From NCBI GenBank assembly GCA_022072455.1, contig JAJVHY010000020.1:248001-312000 (forward strand): 64,000 bases of DNA. The letters run 5' to 3'. This document shows positions 9,012 through 34,816 of this stretch, in pieces (the stretch's first letter is position 1; the number at the start of each line of letters is the position of its first letter). Made by a program: the position numbers and the translations under genes. The notes below the pieces were generated by a model. It made no database searches. It was not told the DNA's origin and worked only from the letters and a program-made list of their open reading frames with translations. This stretch comes from Verrucomicrobiia bacterium. Its GTDB lineage: Bacteria > Verrucomicrobiota > Verrucomicrobiia > Palsa-1439.

Positions 9012-9080
9012 GTAGGGTGCGCTATTGCGCACCACCCGTGTGATTTAGCCATCCAATCGGTGCGCAATAGCGCACCCTAC
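9012..9080. repeat. perfect 22-bp inverted repeat (GTAGGG...CCCTAC element)
   Basis: The arm at 9012-9033 (begins GTAGGGTGCGC) is the exact reverse complement of the arm at 9059-9080 (ends GCGCACCCTAC), with a 25-base loop. Each arm can also fold by itself (GGTGCGC-AATA-GCGCACC). The right arm supplies the TAG stop of the 172-residue gene at 9077. This is REP- or MITE-like architecture. It shares GTAG/CTAC ends with the elements at 3.3, 18.8, 34.8 and 35.5 kb. Confidence 0.8.
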
Positions 9081-9638: not shown

Positions 9639-10610
9639 TTACCGGGTCCGCCACGCCGTGATGATCTGGTCAATCAACGCGTCGGTCTTCGGATTGAGGG
9701 CTTGATCCTCGGGATGTGCACGCAACCAGGTGATTGATTCACGAATGCCGGTCGCGAAGTCTTTCCGACAAACATACTCCGGCACAAAGCGCTTGAGCTT
9801 GGAGTTATCGAAGATGGCCGGTTCGATCTTGTCGCCCTTCAGCCCGCCGGTCAGTTCGGGAAATTTCTGACAGATGAAATCTACCGGCACCTTTTCCACA
9901 ACCGGCTGCACCCCCAGCGCTAAGCCGACCTCTGCGTAAATCTGATTCCACGTCAACGCCTCGTCGCTCGTGATGTGAAACGTCTCGCCGACGGCGCGCT
10001 CCTTGCCCACCAATCCCGCCAGTCCCACCGCGAAATCCTGAGACGAAGTCAATGTCCACGGATTCTCGCCGTCGTTGGCGACAAAGACCGGCGCACCCCG
10101 CTCCAGTCTGGCCGCAAACGTGTACCCCACACTCCCCGCCTGATTCGGAATCCACTTTTTCGAGTACGTGTGCGACGGCCGCACGATCGTCACCGGCAAG
10201 TCCTGTTTGGCCAACCACTCCTCACACCGCAGCTTTTTCTGCGCATACTCGGAGTAGAAATTCCCCAGCGGTGTTTTCTCCGTGATCGGCAATTGCCGGT
10301 GCGGCTTCGCGTACACCGTCGCGGAACTGATGAAAATGTATTGGCGAATGTTACCCGCGAACACTGCGAAATCCACTTCGAGGTCCGGCAAGTCATACCC
10401 GAGGAAATTGATGACCACATCGAACGTTTCTCCTGCGAGCGCGCCGCGCAACGCGTCCCGATTCCGCCGGTCCGCCGTGAAACTCCGGTACGCCGCCGGC
10501 ACCGCCGCGTTGCCGCGCGAGACGACACCAATCTGATGCCCGCGCTCATGCAGCAACGCCGCACAATCCGTCGAGATATTCCCCGTACCGCCGATAAAGA
10601 GGATGTTCAT
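9639..10610 (-). CDS. NAD-dependent epimerase/dehydratase family protein (extended SDR)
   Basis: Extended short-chain dehydrogenase of 323 residues. The N-terminal Rossmann motif GGTGNIS is at residues 7-13, and the region around FISSATVYAK and FYSEYAQKKLRCEE provides the expected Ser/Tyr/Lys catalytic set. Members related to this type act on nucleotide sugars or are chloroplast-type CSP41/mRNA-binding SDRs; the substrate is unknown here. The start is ATG at 10,608-10,610. A diverged, truncated copy of its first 37 codons lies at 11,796-11,909. The gene is divergent from the zeta-like toxin gene across about 70 bases. Confidence 0.88.
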   Translation of the reverse strand: MNILFIGGTGNISTDCAALLHERGHQIGVVSRGNAAVPAAYRSFTADRRNRDALRGALAGETFDVVINFLGYDLPDLEVDFAVFAGNIRQYIFISSATVYAKPHRQLPITEKTPLGNFYSEYAQKKLRCEEWLAKQDLPVTIVRPSHTYSKKWIPNQAGSVGYTFAARLERGAPVFVANDGENPWTLTSSQDFAVGLAGLVGKERAVGETFHITSDEALTWNQIYAEVGLALGVQPVVEKVPVDFICQKFPELTGGLKGDKIEPAIFDNSKLKRFVPEYVCRKDFATGIRESITWLRAHPEDQALNPKTDALIDQIITAWRTR

Positions 10611-10632
10611 GCGCAGCAGAGACTGTCAAAGC
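10611..10632 (-). promoter_or_regulatory. upstream box shared with hisC
   Basis: The minus strand reads GCTTTGACAG (10,623-10,632), then CTGCGC directly before the epimerase ATG, as upstream of hisC at 8970-8986. Candidate promoter or regulator site; function unknown. Confidence 0.3.
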
Positions 10633-10657
10633 TGGCAAGTCCGGTCAAATCTGATTC

Positions 10658-10676
10658 TTGCATGCGTTCCATGCAA
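10658..10676. promoter_or_regulatory. operator-like palindrome in front of the toxin gene
   Basis: TTGCATG (10,658-10,664) and CATGCAA (10,670-10,676) are exact reverse complements separated by CGTTC. The site lies in the divergent promoter region, five bases before the first ATG of the toxin gene, a usual place for an autoregulator operator of a toxin-antitoxin module. Confidence 0.5.
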
Positions 10677-10680
10677 CGTT

Positions 10681-11280
10681 ATGATGCGCGCGCCAATGCC
10701 AGCTCGAAAATTCCAACCGAACCTCTACATCATTGCCGGACCGAACGGCGCTGGCAAAACCACGTTCGCGCGGAAGTTTCTACCGCACTACGCCGATTGT
10801 CAGGAGTTTGTGAATGCCGATCTGATTGCCAGCGGGATTTCGCCTTTCGCCCCCGAATCGGCAGGATTTCGCGCCGGCCGGCTGATGCTGGAGCAAATCC
10901 ACAAGCTCGGCCAGCGCGGCGTCGATTTCGGCTTTGAGACCACGCTGGCAGGTACGGCCTATCTCCCGCTCCTGCGGCGGTCGAAGGCAAAAGGCTATGC
11001 GGTTCATCTGTTCTTCCTCTGGATTCCCACCAGCGAAATGGCGTTGGCCCGCGTCGCCGACCGGGTCCGGCAAGGCGGTCACAACGTGCCGGCCGCCGTC
11101 GTCCGCCGGCGGTTCGCCAGAGCGCTACGGAATTTTCTGACGAAATACCGGCCGCTGCTGGATACGTGGATTCTGTTCGACAACTCGACGGAAACCCCGC
11201 AAGTCATCGCCGCAGAAGAAGCCGGCAAGATTCGGATCGTAAACGAACGCTTGTTTGCTACATTGACTCAGGATCAATGA
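10681..11280 (+). CDS. zeta-toxin-like P-loop kinase
   Basis: P-loop protein of about 200 residues resembling the small zeta/AAA-type toxin kinases. The Walker A motif GPNGAGKTT follows the strand NLYIIA about 20 residues in. VNADLIASGISPF and FGFETTLAG match the substrate-binding segments of zeta-type proteins, and VADRVRQGGHNVPAAVVRRR resembles the Arg-rich lid. Zeta toxins phosphorylate UDP-sugar precursors of peptidoglycan; that activity is inferred only from family. ATGs at 10,681, 10,684 and 10,696 are possible; none has a clear ribosome site. The stop overlaps the next small gene by ATGA. The module has the host-typical 7-mer TTGCCGG, unlike the ABC-3C island. Confidence 0.8.
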   Translation: MMRAPMPARKFQPNLYIIAGPNGAGKTTFARKFLPHYADCQEFVNADLIASGISPFAPESAGFRAGRLMLEQIHKLGQRGVDFGFETTLAGTAYLPLLRRSKAKGYAVHLFFLWIPTSEMALARVADRVRQGGHNVPAAVVRRRFARALRNFLTKYRPLLDTWILFDNSTETPQVIAAEEAGKIRIVNERLFATLTQDQ

Positions 11281-11795: not shown

Positions 11796-11909
11796 TCAGA
11801 CAAGGGCGTCGCCGCGTGTGACGACGTCGACCTGATGCCCGCGTTCGTGCAGCAGCGCCGCACGATCCGTCGAGATATTCCCCGTGCCGCCGATGAAAAG
11901 GATGCTCAT
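11796..11909 (-). pseudogene. truncated second copy of the epimerase gene 5' end
   Basis: On the minus strand the frame reads MSILFIGGTGNISTD, RAALLHERGHQVDVV and then TRGDALV followed by TGA. This matches the first 37 codons of the epimerase gene at 9639-10,610, with several substitutions. The homology also continues upstream of the ATG (GCAGAGACT). The copy is cut after codon 37. It lies between the toxin module and the ABC-3C island, so the toxin module is bracketed by two diverged copies of the same gene start. Confidence 0.85.
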
Positions 11910-11931
11910 ATGTGGCAGAGACTCTGCCTAA

Positions 11932-14949: not shown

Positions 14950-16020
14950 TTATCCATTCACATTCGGATAGCTGCCGAGAATCTTCACAAACATCGTGTG
15001 CTTGGCGAGTTCACTCAACGCCTTCTTCACGCGCGCGTCGTCACAGTGGCCGGTGCAGTCCACGAAGAAGTAATACTCCCACGCCTTCTTCTTGCTCGGA
15101 CGCGATTCGATCTTGGTGAGGTTGATCTTGTGCCGCTTGAAGGTGGCGAGCGAATCGTGCAGCGCGCCGACGCGGTCTTGTGCGGCGAACATGATCGAGG
15201 TCTTGTCGTTACCAGTCCGCGCGGGATGCTTGCGGCCGATGACGAGAAACCGGGTCACGTTCTCGCTGGAGTCTTGAATATTCTCGTCGTGAATCGTCAG
15301 ACCATATTTTTCCGCGGCCAACGCACCGGCCAATGCACCGGCGTTCGGCTCCTGCTTCGCGATCTCGGCGGCGCGGGTGCTGGAGGAGACTTCCACCAGC
15401 TCGACGTGCGGCATGTTGACCTGCACCCATTGCCGGCATTGGGCGAAGACTTGCGCGATCGAGTAGAGCTTCTTGATCTGGTCACGCGGCCCGGCGGCCA
15501 TCAGGTTGTGGCGGATCGGCAGGAGAATCTGCGAACAGATTTTGAGTTCGCTGTCCACGAACATGTCGTACGTGTGCGTGACCGCGCCTTCAGTCGAATT
15601 TTCAATCGGCACGACGCCGTAATCGGCCCGGCCTTTGGCGACATCGGTGAACACGTCGGCAATGCTCGGCATCGGCTCGTACCGGACGCTCGCGCCGAAC
15701 TTGCGCACCGAAGCCGCGTGCGAGTAGGTCGCGACCGGCCCGAGAAACGCGATGATCAGCGGTTTCTCCAACGCCAACGCGCTCGACATCACTTCCCGGT
15801 AAATCGCGCGCAAAGATTCGTTGGTGATCGGACCGCTGTTCTGGCCGATTACGCGGTTGAAGACGGCCTCTTCCCGGTCCGGCGCGTAGATTTCACCGCC
15901 GGTCTGCTGCTTGAGTTTGCCGACTTCGAGGATGAGTTTGGTTCGGGCGTTGAGGAGTTTGACCAACTTGCTGTCGATGGCGTCGATCTGGGAGCGTAGT
16001 TTCGTGAGGTCAACTTTCAT
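14950..16020 (-). CDS. pheA: bifunctional chorismate mutase/prephenate dehydratase (P-protein)
   Basis: Protein of 356 residues with three parts: an AroQ chorismate mutase domain (1-80, LRSQIDAIDSKLVKLLNART), a prephenate dehydratase domain (about 90-270, IAFLGPVATYSHAA, VVPIENSTEGAV, NVTRFLVIG), and a C-terminal ACT domain with the Phe-binding ESRP motif (about 280-356). It converts chorismate to phenylpyruvate and should be feedback-inhibited by phenylalanine. The start overlaps the scpB stop by four bases. It is the last gene of the trpS-scpA-scpB-pheA run, and the ABC-3C island begins 26 bases beyond its stop. Confidence 0.95.
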   Translation of the reverse strand: MKVDLTKLRSQIDAIDSKLVKLLNARTKLILEVGKLKQQTGGEIYAPDREEAVFNRVIGQNSGPITNESLRAIYREVMSSALALEKPLIIAFLGPVATYSHAASVRKFGASVRYEPMPSIADVFTDVAKGRADYGVVPIENSTEGAVTHTYDMFVDSELKICSQILLPIRHNLMAAGPRDQIKKLYSIAQVFAQCRQWVQVNMPHVELVEVSSSTRAAEIAKQEPNAGALAGALAAEKYGLTIHDENIQDSSENVTRFLVIGRKHPARTGNDKTSIMFAAQDRVGALHDSLATFKRHKINLTKIESRPSKKKAWEYYFFVDCTGHCDDARVKKALSELAKHTMFVKILGSYPNVNG

Positions 16021-16877
16021 TTCTTGTCCTCGCCGTCTTCCGCCTCATCGTCATCGTCATCGTCATCATCATCTTCGTCATCTTCGTCGTACTCGTCCTC
16101 TTCCTCTTCGTCGTCCACCGCATCAGCGGTTTCGGTGGCCTCTTCGGTAGGTGCCGGCTCCTCTGACTTTGTTGCCGAAGCGTCAGTTTCGGATGTGGCG
16201 GGGGCTACCGGTGCCGGTTCGGCTGAAGCTGACACTGCAGCTGCAGGGGCCGGTTCGGCTGCGGGCGTTTCGACAATAGCCGCCTTTGCTTCCGCGGTCT
16301 TCAAAGCGGCAGCTTGGGCACGGAGTTCGGCGGATTTCGGCATGTCGTCAATATCGCGCAGGCCGAAATGTTCGAGGAACCGCTGCGTGGTGCCGTAGAG
16401 CAACGGCTTACCGGCTTGTTCGCTGCGGCCGGTGATCGTGATGAGATCGCGTTCGAGCAACGACTTGATGACGCCGTCCACTTCGACGCCACGGATGGCG
16501 GCAATGTCGGCGCGGGAGATCGGCTGCCGGAGCGCGATAATCGAGAGCGTTTCCAAGGCGGGCTGCGAGAGCCGGTGCGGTCGGGCTTCGTCGAGGAGTT
16601 TCTTGAGCCACGGGGCGTATTCAGCCCGGCTCATCAGTCGCCACCCACCGGCAATTTCGACGAGTTGGAAGCTATGCTGCTGCACGTCATACTCGATCTT
16701 GAGTTCCTCCAGGACAGCCACCAGTTGAGCTTCGCGGACATTGCGGAACGGCTCGGTGAGCCCCGGCGTTTCTTCGTCAATCGCATCGGCGAAGATTTGC
16801 CGGATTTCTTTGGAGGTCAGGGGCCGTTCGGCCGAGAACAACACGGCTTCGACAATTTTTTTGAGTTCCAGTGTCAT
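16017..16877 (-). CDS. scpB: segregation and condensation protein B with long acidic tail
   Basis: Kleisin-associated winged-helix protein of the SMC-ScpAB condensin. The core (about 1-185) shows AVLFSAERPLTSKEI, FQLVEIAGGWRLMSR and ALETLSIIALRQPISRADI, typical of ScpB. After that comes a low-complexity tail: about 45 Ala/Pro/Glu-rich residues followed by an almost uninterrupted Asp/Glu stretch (encoded at 16,030-16,125). Total length is 286 residues against about 200 for many homologues, so the tail is the excess. It overlaps both scpA and pheA by four bases. Confidence 0.93.
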   Translation of the reverse strand: MTLELKKIVEAVLFSAERPLTSKEIRQIFADAIDEETPGLTEPFRNVREAQLVAVLEELKIEYDVQQHSFQLVEIAGGWRLMSRAEYAPWLKKLLDEARPHRLSQPALETLSIIALRQPISRADIAAIRGVEVDGVIKSLLERDLITITGRSEQAGKPLLYGTTQRFLEHFGLRDIDDMPKSAELRAQAAALKTAEAKAAIVETPAAEPAPAAAVSASAEPAPVAPATSETDASATKSEEPAPTEEATETADAVDDEEEEDEYDEDDEDDDDDDDDDEAEDGEDKK

Positions 16878-18607: not shown

Positions 18608-19513
18608 TCAGCCGGCCAGCCGCAACGCGCCGGCCACTGTCTCGCGACGCAAAACCCGGACAGTTGAGCCGGGAAGCATCGTGCGAATGCGGTTGCTGAC
18701 CAGAATGGCGAATTTCCGGTGATGCCGCAAAACGCCACCGGCCAGGACAATCTGTAGCGGCGCTTTATGAGCGCCGTGATCGGTGTCACGGACACGGCGA
18801 CGGTCAGAGACCGCCGCTACAGAACCAGCCAGCCCGAGCTTGAGCGCGACGGCATGGCAATCTTGCGCCAGAAACGAAGCCCCTTGCAGCATCAAGCCGG
18901 CATCGTGATCAATAAATTCAGCGGCAAGTTGGGCTACATCATCTTTCCCGGCTTGGTGAATCCAGTCCACGAGTTGTTCCATGGAAGTCAAACCGAGGCG
19001 GCGCAGAACCGGCTCATGCGCGCGGCCATGCCGGTCAAATTCGCGAATCGCCGCCCGCAACCCGGTAATCCCAATCCAATACCCACTCCCGTGATCGCCC
19101 AACAAATGCCCCCAGCCGCCAGCTCGCGCCACCTGCCCGGCCGCGTTCCGTCCGACGACAACCGAGCCGGTGCCGCTGAGGACATAGATCCCGGGCTTGG
19201 TCAGTCCAAAGGCTGTGGCCAGACCGGAATCGAGGTCGTTGCCGACGTAGATGTTCTCCGCTTTCGGCCAAGCTTGCCGGGCCACGCGGAGGATTCGTTG
19301 CCGGTCGGTTTCGGTCCGACAACCGGCCAGACACACGGCGGCCCGGCTGGGTTTGAATTGCCGGAGTATTTGGCGGATTTGCCGGTCGGTCGAGAGTTTA
19401 AGGTTGAGCGGGCCAAATTGCCGGCGCTCGCCGCGGGATGTGAGGGCAACGGTTTTCGTTCCGCCGCCCTCAATTCCCAAAGTGTAAGCTGCCGCTTCCC
19501 CACCCGTTTTCAC
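18608..19513 (-). CDS. BadF/BadG-type ATPase, N-acetylglucosamine-kinase-like, with an in-frame palindromic insert
   Basis: ASKHA-fold kinase of 301 residues. The phosphate-binding motif GIEGGGTKT is near residue 13, with YVLSGTGSVVVGRN, GGWGHLLGDHGSGYWIG and a second adenosine-type motif IVLAGGVLRH. Members phosphorylate amino sugars such as GlcNAc, or act as 2-hydroxyacyl-CoA dehydratase activators; the small size fits a sugar kinase. Residues about 231-254 are encoded by a palindromic repeat (18,752-18,822) and look unlike the family (VSDRRRVRDTDHGAHKAP). The insert lies just before the second ATP-binding motif and keeps the frame. The start is GTG at 19,511-19,513, 18 bases after the hybrid kinase stop. 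Confidence 0.85.
   Translation of the reverse strand: MKTGGEAAAYTLGIEGGGTKTVALTSRGERRQFGPLNLKLSTDRQIRQILRQFKPSRAAVCLAGCRTETDRQRILRVARQAWPKAENIYVGNDLDSGLATAFGLTKPGIYVLSGTGSVVVGRNAAGQVARAGGWGHLLGDHGSGYWIGITGLRAAIREFDRHGRAHEPVLRRLGLTSMEQLVDWIHQAGKDDVAQLAAEFIDHDAGLMLQGASFLAQDCHAVALKLGLAGSVAAVSDRRRVRDTDHGAHKAPLQIVLAGGVLRHHRKFAILVSNRIRTMLPGSTVRVLRRETVAGALRLAG
18752..18822. repeat. GTAG-type palindromic element inserted in frame in a coding sequence
   Basis: The ends CTGTAGCGGCG (18,752-18,762) and CGCCGCTACAG (18,812-18,822) are exact reverse complements. Inside are smaller hairpins: GGCGCT-TTATG-AGCGCC (18,759-18,775), GTGTC-ACG-GACAC, and CGGTC-AGA-GACCG (18,801-18,813). It is translated as part of the sugar-kinase-like protein, which resembles the situation of Rickettsia palindromic elements. 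Confidence 0.8.
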
Positions 19514-19531
19514 GGGCGGCAGCTTACAAAG

Positions 19532-34768: not shown

Positions 34769-34816
34769 CTGTAGCCGAAGCGTGAGCTTCGGCCGAGGCT
34801 TACGCCTCGGCTACAG
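34769..34816. repeat. GTAG-type palindromic element (two back-to-back hairpins)
   Basis: The outer arms CTGTAGCCGA (34,769-34,778) and TCGGCTACAG (34,807-34,816) are reverse complements. Inside are two hairpins: GCCGAAGC-GTGA-GCTTCGGC and CCGAGGC-TTAC-GCCTCGG. It lies between the HNH and isochorismatase genes. Same CTGTAGC/GCTACAG ends as the element at 18,752-18,822. Confidence 0.75.

Follow-up and report, generated by a model that had tools for sequence, protein, structure and literature searches.

The window, a stretch of 64,000 nucleotides from a verrucomicrobial genome (assembly of 4.82 Mb in 36 contigs, 95.6% complete), contains a gene for a BadF/BcrAD-type sugar kinase, within which lies a short palindromic DNA element. 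The features considered here are the following:

18608..19513, minus strand: BadF/BcrAD-type sugar kinase gene with insert, MurK/NAGK-like, 301 aa (Pfam, PDB and Foldseek matches)
18752..18822, minus strand: REPIN-like palindromic element (CT-GTAG...CTAC-AG), translated in frame (fold, inverted repeat, family copies of 75-82% identity)
18798..18820, minus strand: REP unit 1, GTAG plus CGGCGGTCTCTGACCGTCG hairpin (family-copy alignment; exact pattern matches across the phylum)
18754..18776, plus strand: REP unit 2, inverted, GTAG plus CGGCGCTTTATGAGCGCCG hairpin (family-copy alignment)
18777..18797, no strand assigned: variable spacer between both REPs (unconserved among family copies)
9012..9080, no strand assigned: intergenic REPIN of a third GTAG family (GTAGGGTGCGCTATTGCGCACC, GTAGGGTGCGC) (its REP-associated tyrosine transposase, RAYT, in the source genome at C9:197045)
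34769..34816, no strand assigned: intergenic REP dimer of another GTAG family (CTGTAGCCGAAGCGTGAGCTTCGG...) (sequence comparison)

Elsewhere in the window, a 118-nt direct repeat (84% identical; 10507-10624 and 11806-11923) encloses a P-loop gene similar to zeta-type kinases (10603-11280, identified by eye), and a ScpB-like protein, likewise identified by eye (16017-16877), carries a long acidic tail (EDDEEEEDEYDEDDEDDDDDDDDDEAEDGEDKK).

The open reading frame (ORF) at 18608-19513 (-) matches PF01869 in a Pfam search (E = 1.7e-13). Among solved structures, MurK (8zo3) and an archaeal hexokinase come closest: MurK is the PDB sequence match (E = 3.4e-26) and ranks first in a Foldseek search as well (E = 2.7e-14). 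The nearest relatives of the kinase include the records 'Verrucomicrobia bacterium isolate bog_1451' and 'palsa_1439'. Several relatives (L019, L021, L022) combine the kinase with a MurQ-like etherase domain in a single protein of about 574 aa; the source genome and G001, a genome of the same genus, encode a stand-alone kinase, and no close MurQ copy was found in the source genome. A separate palindrome (TGTAAGCTGCCGC...GCGGCAGCTTACA; window 19483-19528) extends over the GTG start codon of the kinase gene, whose first ~10 codons lack homology to the relatives. A later TTG may be the true start, and the palindrome may form a hairpin between the two genes; as a candidate for a second mobile element it was rejected, since its exact pattern is single-copy in the genome.

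The element inside the gene (18752-18822; CTGTAGCGGCGC...GCCGCTACAG) is bounded by outer arms of perfect complementarity over 12 bp (18751-18762 and 18812-18823; TCTGTAGCGGCG and CGCCGCTACAGA). The 71-nt strand folds with -39.2 kcal/mol, compared to -24.1 +/- 3.25 kcal/mol in dinucleotide shuffles (z = -4.65), and none of 200 such shuffles is as stable. GTAG REPs are defined by a terminal GTAG tetranucleotide and a short stem-loop, with stems of mostly 6-9 bp (Di Nocera et al., 2013; PMC3733652), and a REPIN consists of two inverted REPs and a spacer that form a long hairpin, found mainly outside of genes (Bertels and Rainey, 2011; PMC3116915). Both units of the element start with GTAG followed by a hairpin, the unit is repeated in the genome, and the doublet is inverted, separated by a spacer and able to form one long hairpin, with a core from GTAG to CTAC of 67 nt. 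These features identify the 71-base element as a REPIN-type dimer of GTAG-class REPs. No clear target-site duplication was recognized by eye at its ends. The strong RNA fold could also be that of a regulatory hairpin, i.e., an attenuator or terminator selected within the coding region. However, an Rfam search with the element gave no match, the same sequence occurs at unrelated intergenic and genic places, and orthologues lack it, which renders a regulatory origin very improbable.

The first-pass annotation had proposed that the palindrome is read in frame in a BadF/NAGK-like gene, just before the second ATP motif, and the inverted repeat, the fold and the reading frame, which is open across the whole element with no stop codon or frameshift, bear this out. 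The core encodes residues 232-254 of the kinase (VAAVSDRRRVRDTDHGAHKAPLQ), directly ahead of IVLAGG, which holds the adenosine motif LAGG. The tblastn matches break at residues 228-232 (230-232 for the same-genus genome G001 and for G004, G005 and G010) and restart at 254-255, and in the alignment KLGLEKPRIALTGG of G009 and KLKLTQPAVALAGG of G001 stand where the kinase has KLGLAGS, the insert and IVLAGG. As had been anticipated, the insert is absent in all 11 aligned homologues, the same-genus one included, and no homologue from a distant genus was observed to carry the same residues. The net gain is 22 residues by alignment; the corresponding 66 nt are inferred from homologues of ~60% identity, and a 69-nt insertion into an ancestral loop one residue shorter is a possible alternative.

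An AlphaFold model (four-sequence alignment, mean pLDDT 65.7) places the insert in a low-confidence loop: residues 232-249 have pLDDT values below 50 and lie between a helix (205-225) and a strand (254-258). The ~22 added residues are probably disordered or floppy in the kinase. In the alignment, the loop at the insert site also differs in length among distant homologues, which, together with the low pLDDT, suggests a site that tolerates additions. An open ORF and a host protein without decay would likewise fit a conserved functional insertion of a kinase subfamily that is palindromic by chance. Yet all homologues lack the insert, the same DNA is repeated at unrelated genome loci, and G028 encodes a cousin of the peptide within an unrelated ORF (see below), leaving this explanation extremely improbable.

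Another explanation is that the insertion inactivated the kinase, and that the gene is a pseudogene still open by chance. The codon score of 16.7, low given the ORF length, would agree with this, as would the MurQ half that is fused in several relatives and without a close copy in the source genome. However, the gene has acquired neither stop nor frameshift, and its phosphate and adenosine motifs are retained. With the insert left out, the kinase is 63, 62, 60 and 56% identical to its relatives, which is comparable to the identity among the relatives themselves (e.g., 56% between G001 and G009); its divergence is not above theirs, and there is no sign of decay or of acceleration of the host protein. 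Moreover, since the same-genus kinase of G001 also stands alone, the MurQ half was probably lost before the element inserted. Inactivation is therefore considered unlikely, and the enzyme would presumably still be active.

A search of the source genome with the element retrieved five full-length copies besides the one in the kinase (C12, C29, C4, C10, C8; 75-82% identical, E-values of 1e-10 to 5e-6), as well as several half copies and single units, so that the family comprises at least six full-length members. When the copies are aligned, both ends are conserved (GTAGCGGCGGTCTATGACCGYCG and, inverted, GTAGCGGCGCTCTATGAGCGCCG), unlike the spacer of ~20 nt between them; the core measures 66 nt in 10 of 18 copies, and CT directly precedes GTAG on the 5' side in 14 of 18. 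Exact matches to the REP pattern number eight in the source genome, with none for the reversed control pattern. The proposal that the intergenic elements of the window share the end-type of the kinase element was partly correct: the dimer at 34769-34816 has the CTGTAGC.G end in common with it, but the stems differ, the element at 9012-9080 is a third type of REPIN, and the true relatives lie elsewhere in the genome. In the full-length copies of the source genome, the frames xxG|TAG and xGT|AGC nearly always contain stops, which are supplied by the TAG of the tag itself and by TGA in the stem, and the frame GTA|GCG is usually open. This frame is common to three genic family copies: the kinase, a Dpy19-like membrane protein (C29) and the G028 ORF, whose unrelated sequence contains the cousin peptide VAAVSDRRPPAKETAGGQRPPLQ. 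The family is otherwise mostly extragenic in the source genome and its relatives (only 1 of 22 sampled copies in REP-rich relatives looked genic), and the kinase copy is an exception in lying inside a gene.

Within the phylum, the family is patchily distributed. The REP pattern is present in 12 of 289 sampled genomes, again with no match for the reversed control; the highest count among the 289 is reached in G113, with 151 exact matches and none for the reversed pattern. Forward REPIN-pattern matches amount to 44 in G020 and 25 in G028, and both genomes harbor short RAYT-like transposase genes with repeats of the kinase-element family on both sides (L178 and L192 in G020, L173 in G028). No RAYT flanked by this family (GTAGCGGCG) was seen in the source genome (95.6% complete), where RAYT genes have GTAG hairpins of other kinds nearby, or none. 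The cognate RAYT is therefore missing from the source genome, diverged, or located within an assembly gap. Machinery of this type is nevertheless present: REPINs of the GTAGGGTGCGC family flank the RAYT at C9:197045, which matches NCBIfam NF047646 with 182 bits against a cut-off of 80. At C9:194533-197617 (L162 4533-7617), a mutS gene with a 42-nt palindromic insert adjoins this RAYT, which has GTAGGGTGCGCTATTGCGCACC REPINs on either side and so forms a REPtron.

Taken together, a GTAG REP dimer of the REPIN type, a mobile-type repeat, has very probably inserted in frame into a BadF/MurK-type kinase gene. The non-autonomous element would have entered at the loop between the long helix and the strand that leads to the adenosine motif. 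Its mover would be a REP-associated tyrosine (Y1/HUH) transposase (RAYT/TnpA-REP) that acts on single-stranded GTAG hairpins and cuts at CT; cleavage by TnpA-REP at CT beside GTAG has been shown for E. coli and others (PMC8266576). Three circumstances may explain why the insertion persisted: it adds a whole number of codons (22 relative to all near homologues), it is read in the one stop-free frame, GTA|GCG, and the loop that received it naturally varies in length. The outcome would be an otherwise conserved kinase with ~22 additional, probably disordered residues, gained by an event that may have been neutral.

The kinase insert is a further case of a phenomenon already described in Verrucomicrobia and Rickettsia. 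GTAG-REP dimers inside ORFs, in frame and encoding 20-30 aa, have been reported, with the largest number in the verrucomicrobium Opitutus terrae; many hosts are DNA repair genes, and genes often end at a stop codon provided by the TAG of GTAG (Di Nocera et al., 2013; PMC3733652). The O. terrae dimers resemble those of the source genome in the GTAG tag, the hairpin stem, the inverted arrangement and the in-frame insertion of 20-30 aa, and also in having DNA repair genes among their hosts and in the use of the tag as a gene-end stop. In contrast, the host of the present element is a sugar kinase, and the element, compared with the O. terrae dimers by description, would belong to another verrucomicrobial family. 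With REPINs in general, it shares the two inverted REPs and the spacer, copies throughout the genome and, in relatives, the association of the family with RAYT genes; it differs in the intragenic position of the kinase copy and in that no cognate RAYT was seen in the source genome. The parallel drawn by the first-pass annotation with Rickettsia palindromic elements (RPEs) holds for the outward behavior: as far as the citing papers describe them, RPEs are palindromic DNA in frame in unrelated proteins and apparently tolerated (Ogata et al., 2000, 2002, cited in PMC10969869 and PMC3733652), and the kinase insert is likewise an in-frame palindrome of 20-30 aa. Homology to RPEs, by descent or by transfer, has nonetheless almost no probability. 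The first RPEs are given as ~150 bp long in those accounts and stem from a different phylum, and the REP-like RPE-4/6 are counted as CGTC-class (PMC3733652), whereas the kinase element has GTAG ends and a 67-nt core, has family members beside RAYT genes in related genomes, and belongs to a family that is patchy within the verrucomicrobial phylum. The assumption that such elements are rare outside Rickettsia does not stand, given the cases in O. terrae and several more in the source genome itself.

These additional cases come from a census with the author's simple gene finder on 1.61 Mb, about a third of the genome; some stretches were chosen for hits, so that fractions are biased. Seven further palindromic GTAG elements lie in frame inside called genes, which were also examined with Pfam:

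C3:192874-195819: SNF2 helicase with GTAG insert (in-frame census)
C3:371278-374049: AddB-like nuclease with GTAG insert (name by eye)
C4:89456-91192: MutL with GTAG insert in the linker (in-frame census)
C29: Dpy19-like membrane protein with GTAG insert (in-frame census)
C1:65890-67716: GlnRS with GTAG insert (in-frame census)
C9: MutS with GTAG insert (in-frame census)
Sigma factor with GTAG insert at the C-terminus, a weaker case (in-frame census)

The MutL and AddB-like inserts belong to one repeat family and encode recognizably similar peptides, and the RuvX gene at C4:251921 receives its stop codon from an element. The inserts of MutL, MutS and GlnRS sit in length-variable regions, and their absence in homologues is less clear-cut than for the kinase. 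In G009, repeat-like inserts of other sequence (ATPHPNPLPQGARGSSTSSPLPSGGEDQGEGAS; EGRAPARPLADAAKQELGPP) occupy these same variable loops in GlnRS (L213) and MutS (L231). Raw counts of GTAG..CTAC palindromes were rejected as proof: with up to two mismatches there are 38, and some control tetranucleotides equal or exceed this (GATG and GTTG, 46 each); with up to one mismatch there are 10, against a median of 3. The claim consequently rests on family membership and not on palindrome number. About 86% of C3 is coding, yet most copies are extragenic, as expected if genic insertions are mostly lost. A more far-reaching idea is that the REPIN families of this verrucomicrobial lineage have become adapted as coding cassettes of 66 nt with a single stop-free frame. 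They would repeatedly extend housekeeping and DNA repair proteins (MutL, MutS, AddB-like, SNF2) by disordered segments of 20-24 residues in loops and linkers, some with acquired function; this is regarded as a long shot.

The kinase gene is a clear instance of a mobile-type palindrome that has become part of a protein: homologues lacking the insert, the repeat family and, in relatives, the likely transposase are all identified. Annotators should take VAAxxxRR...PLQ-type segments of verrucomicrobial proteins as derived from repeats and not as conserved domains. With seven further candidates in a third of the genome, the lineage would be convenient for studying how often REPINs are tolerated in genes, which frames and loops accept them, and whether the added peptides are of any use.
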